From Pseudomonadota bacterium (GTDB lineage: Bacteria > Pseudomonadota > Alphaproteobacteria > Acetobacterales > Acetobacteraceae), in NCBI GenBank assembly GCA_019352115.1, contig JABBNW010000011.1:1-42116 (forward strand): a DNA stretch of 42,116 nt, in the 5' to 3' direction. The notes beneath the pieces were generated by a model that saw only the letters and a program-made list of their open reading frames with translations, did no database searches and was not told the DNA's origin. Below, one piece after another: positions 39,638 through 42,116 of this stretch (positions are counted from its first letter, which is position 1; the number at the start of each line of letters is the position of its first letter). The position numbers and the translations under genes are program-made.

Positions 39638-39979
39638 TCAGGCGGCGATGCCCAGCCGGTGGCGTGCTTCCTCCAGGTCGTGCGCCGTCTGCAAGTTCAT
39701 CCAGAACTCCGCGCTGGTGCCGAAACGGCGCGCGAGCAGCAGCGCGGTCCCGGCCGTGACGGCTCGCGCCCCGTGGATGATCCCGGTGATGCGGTTGGCC
39801 GGCACGCCGATCTCGCGCGCCAGGGCGCGGGCGGACAGGCCCATCGGTTCCAGGAATTCGGCACGCAGGACCTCCCCGGGGGTGATGTTCGGCAAGGGGG
39901 CGCCGCTGGTCTCGGCCGCGAGGTCGAGGCCGGCGAGGGCGCTGCGCTGGATCAGGTCGGGCATGTCGGGCACTTTCAT
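39638..39979 (-). CDS. higA: HigA-family addiction-module antitoxin
   Basis: A 113-residue XRE-type antitoxin of the HigA/VapI family. The family core is plain: NITPGEVLRAEFLEPMGLSA (about 31-50), the HTH ALAREIGVPANRITGIIHGA and RRFGTSAEFWMNLQTAHDLE (about 84-103). The start at 39979 forms a TGATG junction with the stop of the toxin relic upstream; MPDLIQ at 39964 is an alternative start. HigA normally neutralises the HigB mRNA interferase and represses the operon. Here the cognate toxin is reduced to its last codons, so this is an orphan antitoxin unless it serves another module. Confidence 0.88.
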   Translation of the reverse strand: MKVPDMPDLIQRSALAGLDLAAETSGAPLPNITPGEVLRAEFLEPMGLSARALAREIGVPANRITGIIHGARAVTAGTALLLARRFGTSAEFWMNLQTAHDLEEARHRLGIAA

Positions 39980-40023
39980 CAGTGATAGTCCACGATTTCG
40001 ACCGCGTGGGCACCGCCGCTGGT
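39979..40023 (-). pseudogene. higB toxin remnant (last 14 codons)
   Basis: Immediately before higA, in the overlapping TGATG arrangement typical of higBA, the minus strand encodes TSGGAHAVEIVDYH and then a stop. The ending VEIVDYH is the hallmark C-terminus of HigB/RelE-type toxins. Further upstream in this frame there is only Pro/Ala/Arg-rich sequence, without the rest of the toxin. Confidence 0.72.
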
Positions 40024-40550
40024 GGGGTGCGGGTGGGGCGCTGCGCGTGCAGGCGGGCGGGGTGTTGTACAACTCGGGCCTAGCGGGGGGATCGGCGCGC
40101 GCGAAGTGTACGCTTCGTGGTGGCGGCCGGGCTGAGATGTACGTCCCGGGGCAAGGTTTGGTTCATCTTTGGCCGGCCGGTAGCCCGCGTCAGTTCGGGT
40201 GGCACGGCTGCGGCTGGCGGCTCGGCGGCTGGGTGGGCAACGCGTAGGGCGAAGCGGCGCGACCTCGATCTGAGTGCACGAGCCGGTATGCACCAGGGGC
40301 TTGGTGTCGCTCCGGCCGGGACGAACCCGCTGCGATCGCCAGGGAACGGTTCGACCGGCCGACGCGGCGGCGTACCAGGCGGCAATGCCCGACCGGTGCC
40401 GCGCCGCATTGTGGTCGTGCGCAGTCTGCGCGCTGAAACGGGAACCCTGCGCCTGCGAGACGCTTGGATACGCATGTCGGCACCGCCAGAGGTCGAGGAG
40501 CCGTAACTGCTCAAAAACTAGATCTTATCATTAAAGACGATAGACCGATC
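40024..40550. other. Gene-poor decayed region between higB remnant and AIPR gene
   Basis: About 530 nt without a gene I can support. It holds a degenerate second copy of the higA 3' end (40371-40430, listed separately). The rest is GC-rich sequence with open frames full of Arg, Pro and Ala in all phases. Base composition changes abruptly to AT-richer DNA at about 40505-40530, which marks the edge of the foreign segment carrying the AIPR gene. Confidence 0.5.
40371..40430 (-). pseudogene. Degenerate copy of the higA 3' end
   Basis: This stretch aligns with the intact higA 3' end (about 39635-39692) with around three quarters of bases identical by hand count. The minus-strand frame reads QTAHDHNAARHRSGIAA, against LQTAHDLEEARHRLGIAA in higA. 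The stop codon position has changed and the frame runs on into unrelated sequence. It is the relic of a second HigA-type gene or of a duplication. Confidence 0.6.
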
Positions 40551-41729
40551 TTAGTCCGTGGCCTGGGCATTGGCTATAGCCGCGGCATCCGCCACAATTG
40601 CACCAATATGGGCGACCACGTCTTTACACTTGCTCAGGTTCTTGAAGAGGTGAGCCAGGTAAGAGTCACCGTACAGCTCTCCAAGGACATCGTAGAGGCG
40701 AGCGCACGCCTGGGAGGTCAAATTCCGGATGGCCGCCGCATGCCGAGATATTTCGAACTTCGGTGTTCCGAGGTCGTCGCAGACGAAGTTACGGAACACT
40801 ATGTGTGCTACCAATCGGTTTCCATTGATTGCTATACTTCTGGCCTTAGCGTCATCTTGCATTAATCGTTCTAGTTCCAGAAGGTCGTCTACCTCCCTGA
40901 GAATTTGCACAAGGTGCCAAAGTTTAAGGCTAGAAAGCCCGGAGTTGAACATTATCTTATATGGAGGTCGAGCAAGATCCTCCCAAAGCTTACTAATCTC
41001 TCGTTTAGCTTGAACGGATAGGTCTGGGGAACTTGTAGAGCAGGCAAGAGCAACTGTGGCATCGACAAGGCCGAAGCGCTTTTCGCCGTTCGGCTCGCCC
41101 TCCCCCTGTCGGTACTCGTAGTCTATGCCGTCAACCAAGAGTTCAGAGCGGATCCTGCCTTGTTCAGGATCGAGAGCGACGAAGTTCCGAGAATCGACGC
41201 GATTCTGTGTGTTAGTTGCTCTCGTCACATCATTAGCAAACTCAGGTGGGCAGCCCTCAAGAGAAATGATCCGAATGGGAACACGTGCGGTCGCGAGCTG
41301 CTCGGCTGCACTATCTGACAACTCAGTGATGGCGCCGACCGTCTGTGCGCCATTTACAATTGCTACACCTTGACACTCGAAGGTCCCGGCTTCCCGGCTG
41401 TTCCCGCCCACCGCTCTCTTAGTGATGCTTGAACAGAGTGCGGTAATACCATTATTGAGATACCAAAACTGGTTTGGCGTTTTTCGGATTGAATCGGCGA
41501 TTCCCTCATTGACCGCGGTATTAGCGCCAAGGAAGGAACGAATGTTTTTGGAGAATATTCTATGCCGCCACTTGGCGCCCCATTGCGCGACATCGCTTGC
41601 GGCAACTTGCCCGTAGAATGCTTGGTAAGGAGCTTTGGTTTGCCCCCAATCGAACAGCTGCACTGCTATATCAACTGGATCGCCTCGTCCACCCATAGAT
41701 ACAATTGTGTATAGATTCTCCTGTGACAC
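40551..41729 (-). CDS. AIPR-family (abortive infection type) protein, 5'-truncated by an insertion
   Basis: A 392-residue open frame matching the AIPR family, associated with abortive-infection phage resistance. Family landmarks are IFSKNIRSFLG (58-68), FWYLNNGITALCSS (88-101) and VAIVNGAQTVGAITELSD (122-139). AIPR proteins normally carry a few hundred further residues before NIRSFLG. Here the frame continues upstream without a stop through SHVYCWGISNDTGDVASLDV, then hits the TAG that ends an IS630 transposase at 41790. The coding start given (GTG, 41729) is therefore only the first internal candidate, and the gene is probably a 5'-truncated pseudogene. GC content is far lower than in neighbouring genes, so it is probably horizontally acquired. 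Confidence 0.75.
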   Translation of the reverse strand: MSQENLYTIVSMGGRGDPVDIAVQLFDWGQTKAPYQAFYGQVAASDVAQWGAKWRHRIFSKNIRSFLGANTAVNEGIADSIRKTPNQFWYLNNGITALCSSITKRAVGGNSREAGTFECQGVAIVNGAQTVGAITELSDSAAEQLATARVPIRIISLEGCPPEFANDVTRATNTQNRVDSRNFVALDPEQGRIRSELLVDGIDYEYRQGEGEPNGEKRFGLVDATVALACSTSSPDLSVQAKREISKLWEDLARPPYKIMFNSGLSSLKLWHLVQILREVDDLLELERLMQDDAKARSIAINGNRLVAHIVFRNFVCDDLGTPKFEISRHAAAIRNLTSQACARLYDVLGELYGDSYLAHLFKNLSKCKDVVAHIGAIVADAAAIANAQATD

Positions 41730-41782
41730 GACGTCTAGACTTGCAACATCACCAGTGTCATTACTAATACCCCAACAATATA

Positions 41783-42116
41783 CATGACTCTACGCGGCGT
41801 AACGAACATCCTTGTGCCTGAAGTAAGCCTTGATCCGATCCGGCTGGCGCTGGAGCGACCGCAGCACCGACGTCGTGCCTCGGACCAGTTCCTCATGCGT
41901 GTCCGGCCGAGGCAAGTTCCGCAGCTTCTGCTTCAGGTCATTGTTCAGGTACTCGTCGGGATTGTGCTCCGGTGCGTAGGGCGGCAGGAAAAACAGCTCG
42001 ATCTCGTCGCTGTGTGCCGCCACCCAGCGGCTGACCTTCACCGCCTTATGCACTCGGAGATTATCCACGATCAGGAACTGCTTGCCGGAGGACCCTTTGA
42101 TCAGCCGCCGCAGGAA
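41783..42116 (-). mobile_element. IS630-family insertion sequence, partial (left end in window)
   Basis: The DDE transposase at 41790-42116 belongs to a GC-rich element abutting the AT-richer AIPR coding sequence. The junction lies between about 41780 and 41790, where composition and reading frame both switch; a TA dinucleotide at 41781-41782 is a plausible target site because IS630 elements insert at TA. The other end and both inverted repeats cannot be checked because the element leaves the window. Confidence 0.7.
41790..42116 (-). CDS. IS630-family transposase, C-terminal part (runs off right edge)
   Basis: The C-terminal roughly 108 residues of a DDE_3/IS630 transposase. The frame stays open to the window edge (FLRRLIKGSSGKQFLIVDNL), so the true start is outside and the internal GTG at 42070-42068 is not a real start. 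The second catalytic aspartate is in LIVDNLRVHKA and the third acidic residue in FFLPPYAPEHNPDEYLNNDL, both standard for this family. The stop (TAG, 41790-41792) lies at the junction with the interrupted AIPR gene. Confidence 0.88.
   Translation of the reverse strand, partial: FLRRLIKGSSGKQFLIVDNLRVHKAVKVSRWVAAHSDEIELFFLPPYAPEHNPDEYLNNDLKQKLRNLPRPDTHEELVRGTTSVLRSLQRQPDRIKAYFRHKDVRYAA

Follow-up and report, generated by a model that had tools for sequence, protein, structure and literature searches.

A stand-alone AIPR/AbiU-type gene, probably acquired by horizontal transfer and then disabled by two elements from a single transposon family

We analyzed a 42,116-nucleotide stretch of DNA from a member of the Acetobacteraceae (the window). 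The window is a whole contig, C219, of an assembly with 385 contigs and 4.76 Mb. It ends within a broken gene, which we consider very likely to be a stand-alone, horizontally acquired AIPR/AbiU-type gene that lost its function when two elements from a single transposon family inserted into it. The gene is split by an IS630-family element, which sits at a TA directly after codon 170, and a MITE at a TA after codon 12 adds an in-frame stop. The features near the junctions are as follows (window coordinates unless stated otherwise; L030 is contig C127 of the same genome):

40551 to 41762, minus strand: AIPR/AbiU-type gene, 3′ part (403 codons plus the stop codon), which corresponds to residues 171 onward of the intact homolog from Roseicella aerolata
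41762 to 41763, no strand: TA target duplication, window copy (from the sequence)
L030 14991 to 14992: TA target duplication, other copy (from the sequence)
41764 to 41788, plus strand: inverted repeat at the IS terminus, which agrees with the opposite IS end at 23 of its first 25 bases
41764 to 42116, minus strand: IS630-family element, transposase-3′ end; it runs off the end of the contig and, from 41764, is common to seven other places in the genome (98-100%)
41790 to 42116, minus strand: IS630 transposase, C-terminal 108 residues, with its TAG stop at 41790-41792 (Pfam DDE_3, 1.3e-19)

Both halves of the gene and both junctions

In the list of frames and their translations, the window's part of the gene is a single open frame (40551-41789, minus strand). 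The TAG at 41790-41792 that closes its upstream side is also the stop codon of the transposase, in the same frame as AIPR. The preliminary description had proposed that an IS630 element splits an AIPR gene and that the AIPR frame is open up to the transposase's TAG, and both statements hold. The window's part matches Pfam's AIPR family (PF10592) with 131.7 bits (E = 6e-38), which is far above the cut-off of 25; the adjacent transposase part matches DDE_3 with 70.9 bits (cut-off 28.6); and the IS starts at 41764, just after a TA. About 20 AIPR-frame codons had been counted before the TAG. There are indeed 20 open codons between the TAG and the first listed start (a GTG at 41729, which would give 392 amino acids), but 9 of these are IS DNA and just 11 are AIPR.

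PADLOC's AbiU profile (PDLC02357) also matches the window's part (8.1e-31, positions 240-526 of 537) and the intact homolog (4.9e-35, positions 82-460), where AbiU membership means a match to the profile, as PADLOC's own acceptance thresholds are not displayed. AbiU confers phage resistance in Lactococcus. The profiles for this family match both the window's part and the intact homolog, and the gene here is broken in two places. The AIPR profile occurs just once in the whole genome.

Across about half of a family sample (200 genomes), one genome has a close homolog (79% identity over 396 residues). This is R. aerolata GB24 (G166), and its protein is intact, with 577 residues. When the first 180 residues of the homolog were compared to the window's genome, there was a single match at E up to 10. 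The match (C127:14512-15006) lies at one end of a contig that is 15,086 bp long. The AIPR reading frame continues to L030 14992 and is followed by CTAATACCCC, which is the other IS end, until the contig ends. The gene starts with an ATG at L030 14380.

The 5′ part corresponds to residues 12-170 of the homolog (159 codons; 102/159 or 64% identical), and the 3′ part corresponds to residues 171-566 (312/396 or 79% identical). Both alignments are gap-free. In other words, the 5′ part stops at residue 170, the window's part opens at residue 171, and the two are contiguous to the exact residue. TA is present at both of the gene's IS junctions. The expectation that the 5′ part would be found beyond the IS, flanked by a TA duplication, was thus borne out on C127. 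It was also correct that the N-terminal part is missing from the window, but it is 170 residues (relative to the homolog from R. aerolata), not a few hundred.

Of the 16 near-identical IS ends that we examined, 15 are interrupted by a contig break, so we can only infer that C127 and C219 are now neighbors in the genome; the assembly leaves these two unjoined. Synteny could not settle the adjacency, because in the congeners examined, homology ends at the end of rplQ and at the end of pspF.

The second insertion is at L030 14415-14514, outside of the window. It is 100 bp long, follows codon 12, and has TA on both sides, and its first bases bring the in-frame stop (codon 13). Aside from these elements, neither the 159 codons of the 5′ part nor the 403 codons of the 3′ part contain a stop or a frameshift. 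Because the frame is otherwise uninterrupted in both parts, the damage looks recent. Counting against the view that one gene was inactivated by the two insertions, the two parts differ in their identity to the homolog.

The IS630-family element, its MITE, and other explanations

The genome contains eight near-identical transposase-3′ ends and eight near-identical 5′ ends of the IS. We found these by pattern, and TA precedes all 16 of them. (Two diverged 5′ ends, on C282 (96%) and C331 (90%), do not match the pattern and are excluded, as is L038 (minus strand, 573), which is a MITE end that was caught by the pattern.) All but one of the 16 ends are cut by the end of a contig. The sixteenth, on C12 (L035, 3598-4010), runs about 245 bases past its match to the other copies, and it is perhaps a deleted or rearranged copy.

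The window's 108 transposase residues score 63.9 bits (1.6e-17) against NCBIfam's IS630 model (NF033545). This is below the cut-off of 100 because only 108 residues are present. We found matches to the IS in 10 of 195 related genomes, including its own. Just one of these, G053, has a near-identical element (L130), with 97% identity across the stretch of the IS that the window contains. The copy in G053 is nearly complete (its transposase frame has 348 residues, and there is a short run of N), and its first 215 transposase residues score 117.1 against NF033545 (cut-off 100). The rest of the matches are about 71-76% identical over longer pieces, or else are short pieces. The nearest plasmid match to the element's 5′ 700 bases is 67% identical (Methylovirgula).

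The 100-bp element is a non-autonomous MITE of the IS630 element: 25 of 26 bases at its two ends match each other, and they also match the ends of the IS. There are six full copies in the genome, and all six are identical and are flanked by TA on both sides. (This count leaves out a seventh match, at C31:14489-14585, which is 86% identical.) Among the 195 related genomes, no genome other than the window's own contains the body of the MITE; G053 was matched via its IS end. Overall, the element has the common features of the IS630 family, namely a DDE_3/IS630 transposase, a TA target, terminal inverted repeats, and non-autonomous copies that share its ends and are flanked by TA. We see no difference in kind.

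Most likely, the AIPR gene arrived by horizontal transfer and the IS630 element spread in the lineage, with TA-rich foreign DNA offering many targets. Both the IS and the MITE landed in the gene, presumably moved by the same transposase. The intact protein might be a defense nuclease that senses invading DNA and cuts nucleic acid, as the structural models suggest, and the split gene would no longer give protection.

Alternatively, the IS might have split the gene and recombination between copies of the IS might later have parted the halves, so that the window is now beside other DNA. Each IS end does occur in the assembly eight times in near-identical form, and the genes downstream of rplQ and pspF differ in the congeners examined. 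But there is no sign of such recombination, and an insertion by itself accounts for the TA duplicates and the exact contiguity of residues, so we consider later recombination to be unlikely. We can also ask if the window's gene encodes an AIPR protein that is short by nature, lacks the N-terminal domain, and adjoins the IS by chance. Some database matches are indeed confined to the AIPR region (the phage records H34-H40, for instance). Against this, a matching N-terminal half is present in the same genome and ends exactly at the other IS end. Given the N-terminal half, we rejected a natural short gene, which has hardly any chance of being correct and would hold only if the 5′ part came from a different gene.

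Another idea is that both pieces are still functional and work together as a split system. The 3′ piece might be translated from the internal GTG after the transposase's stop, or by reinitiation in a same-frame read-through of the transposase, while the 5′ piece might be translated from a GTG after the MITE. Both pieces are open and have internal starts (392 amino acids from 41729, and 163 amino acids from L030 14533), and the transposase's stop is in the AIPR frame. However, open frames are not evidence of use, because freshly broken genes keep their open frames for a while, and there were two independent insertions, one of which brings a stop at codon 13. A functional split system is therefore very improbable. 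Inactivation by the two insertions is the explanation that we prefer.

Foreign origin and genomic context

Low GC content had been taken to show that the gene is foreign, and our results agree. The 3′ part has a GC content of 0.519 and the 5′ part 0.499, as compared to 0.707 for positions 1-40500 of the window. The gene also has 40-45 TA per kb, versus 10-11 in the neighboring host DNA. We did not find the gene in any of the three congeners that we searched (G057, G133, and G182, which are 86-89% complete). Both base composition and the absence from these three congeners support horizontal acquisition. The IS had been said to match the GC-rich host, which is not the case: the part in the window has a GC content of 0.589, which is between the AIPR gene and the host. 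The proposed scenario, in which a probable defense gene was acquired and then inactivated, is supported, with both halves of the gene and TA at both junctions found.

We also compared the flanks of the 16 IS ends to control windows, which were drawn from 19 of 20 sampled contigs, leaving out L164 because it is fully masked. The 300-bp flanks were at or under 0.60 GC for 13 of the 16 ends, versus 53 of 2,267 random windows and 95 of 2,488 TA-anchored windows. Because both flanks of any one IS copy are linked, p-values overstate the difference, but the contrast with the controls persists when either set of eight ends is taken by itself (p of about 1e-5 or less). Thus, the IS is concentrated in AT-rich, presumably foreign DNA, beyond what TA-anchored controls explain. 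Possible causes of this bias are selection against hits to host genes, a wider preference for AT-rich targets, or an IS that arrived together with such DNA. The flanks of the MITE seem to show less of a low-GC bias (1000-bp flanks are mostly 0.58-0.70).

Within the order, the whole homolog has matches in 13 of 395 genomes, including the window's own (E ≤ 1e-20). Relatives are also found in 57 plasmid records (13 of which cover at least 80%) and in 18 prophage records. Seven of the 20 plasmid matches listed (H8-H13 and H15) are from enterobacterial plasmids of only about 5.6 kb that carry an AIPR gene. A scan of a collection of genome contigs with the window's part found no relatives, and a second scan of that collection, with alignment A1, found six. 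We found no relative in the viral contig collection and no match to sequences in the PDB at E ≤ 1. In two alphaproteobacterial MAGs, the AIPR gene is directly 3′ of a gene for an SNF2-type helicase (L142 3105-7797 and L143 3018-7785), and helicase domains were identified in the gene from L142. The two genes are possibly a defense operon.

The gene here stands alone, with a PspF-like gene on one side and a HigA-type gene and rplQ on the other. The gene in R. aerolata likewise lies between GC-rich genes. The flanks of the two genes are unlike each other (local scores of 15 and 15, versus null medians of 17 and 16), so we rejected a conserved mobile unit. We also considered and rejected a defense island. 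We compared 10 flanking frames, which were chosen by length and are not all proven genes, to PADLOC. The PspF-like gene gave generic matches to AAA regulators, and the sole other match was a weak one between a PspA-like protein and JetC (8.2e-4). The suggestion that restriction-modification or other defense genes might lie beside the gene was not borne out, as no restriction-modification gene was recognized among the 10 flanking proteins scanned. The gene for the HigA-type antitoxin is at 39638-40072 of the window (minus strand; TIGR02607, 100.3 bits, cut-off 47.7). No HigB toxin was recognized in the two upstream frames that we scanned; a remnant is possible.

Relative to R. aerolata, pS is 0.86 and 0.94, and pN is 0.145 and 0.223. 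Because synonymous differences are saturated, a recent transfer between this lineage and R. aerolata is unlikely. The contrast between saturated synonymous differences (0.86) and non-synonymous differences of 0.145 indicates that the protein was constrained over a longer time.

Predicted architecture and implications

We modeled the R. aerolata protein with AlphaFold from a six-row alignment (mean pLDDT 70.2, pTM 0.42). Foldseek found no match for this model in the PDB at E ≤ 0.001. By structural alignment (VIA-align 2), the top eight matches for the N-terminal part are nucleases, with Z scores of 8.4 to 6.4: FokI (Z = 8.4, rmsd 3.8, 145 residues aligned), MspJI (7.4), Nt.BspD6I (7.2), HamA (6.5), and a CdiA-CT toxin nuclease. 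We take all of these to be PD-(D/E)xK folds. A motif of the form D-G-x-x-D-x-G-x-D ... Q-x-K, with small changes allowed, is present in the gene's own 5′ part and in all five of the N-terminal sequences in alignment A2. In a wider set of 17 homologs, QxK is kept in 7 and is QxR in another, while it is absent from 8 and the region is missing from 1. Because those eight homologs (L014, L015, L016, L018, L019, L021, L022, and L027) lack D...QxK, N-terminal domains of different kinds seem to occur within the family. The matches to nucleases extend to residues 185-240 of the model, and there is a predicted strand at 177-182, so the break between residues 170 and 171 would be near the C-terminal end of the nuclease-like domain but still inside it, beyond the putative catalytic motif and not exactly at a domain boundary.

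The window's part, modeled alone, has a pLDDT of 68.3 and a pTM of 0.52, and again Foldseek found no match in the PDB at E ≤ 0.001. The top eleven structural alignments for this AIPR part are to ParB, sulfiredoxin, SspE, BrxU, and Noc, which have the ParB/sulfiredoxin fold or are described as having it, with all Z scores under 8 (the best is 5.5, with an rmsd of 3.5 and 92 residues aligned). These scores are modest and confidence in both models is moderate, but the protein is likely to consist of a PD-(D/E)xK-like nuclease followed by a ParB/sulfiredoxin-like domain.

How does this compare to known systems? The protein may resemble SspE/GmrSD-type and DndB-type proteins in that the model of its AIPR region aligns with ParB, SspE, and BrxU (Z of 4.1-5.5). 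SspE and GmrSD carry other types of nucleases, which differ from the PD-(D/E)xK-like domain suggested here. There is also a weak match in the AIPR region to MzaE of the MZA system (PADLOC, 1.7e-14). The intact homolog's score from NCBIfam, 51.7 bits, is far below the equivalog cut-off of 1050, so we do not regard the protein as MzaE, and no other MZA genes were recognized among the flanking proteins that we scanned.

PMC3506569 describes AIPR proteins as having an N-terminal HEPN domain, which disagrees with the nuclease and ParB-like sensor model. No HEPN structure is among the 50 alignments shown for the R. aerolata protein's model. The same paper, PMC3506569, assigns the N-terminus of DndB to AbiU1/AIPR, which fits the model. 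According to PMC4619093, GmrS has a ParB/sulfiredoxin fold with a DGQQR motif, and GmrD is HNH. In the parts of the literature on AIPR, AbiU, MzaE, and DndB/DGQHR that were available, we recognized no description of an architecture with a nuclease and a ParB/sulfiredoxin-like domain.

The gain and loss of a probable defense gene is well resolved in this genome, because we found the two halves, the two junctions, and another insertion from the same family of transposons. One contig alone would not have revealed all of this. This kind of event is already known and is ordinary. The example is new, and neither the nuclease/sensor model nor the bias of the IS needs a new kind of biology. More broadly, there is not quite an even chance that the AIPR/AbiU proteins of this branch are single-chain defense nucleases, with a PD-(D/E)xK domain and a ParB/sulfiredoxin-like sensor such as those that read the state of DNA in SspE, DndB, and GmrSD, and are not HEPN toxins as in PMC3506569 (2012). 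If so, the gene described here would be a case in which nature has parted the cutting domain from its sensor. And because the IS lies mostly in AT-rich, presumably foreign DNA of a GC-rich genome, TA-seeking IS630 elements may repeatedly strike newly acquired genes.
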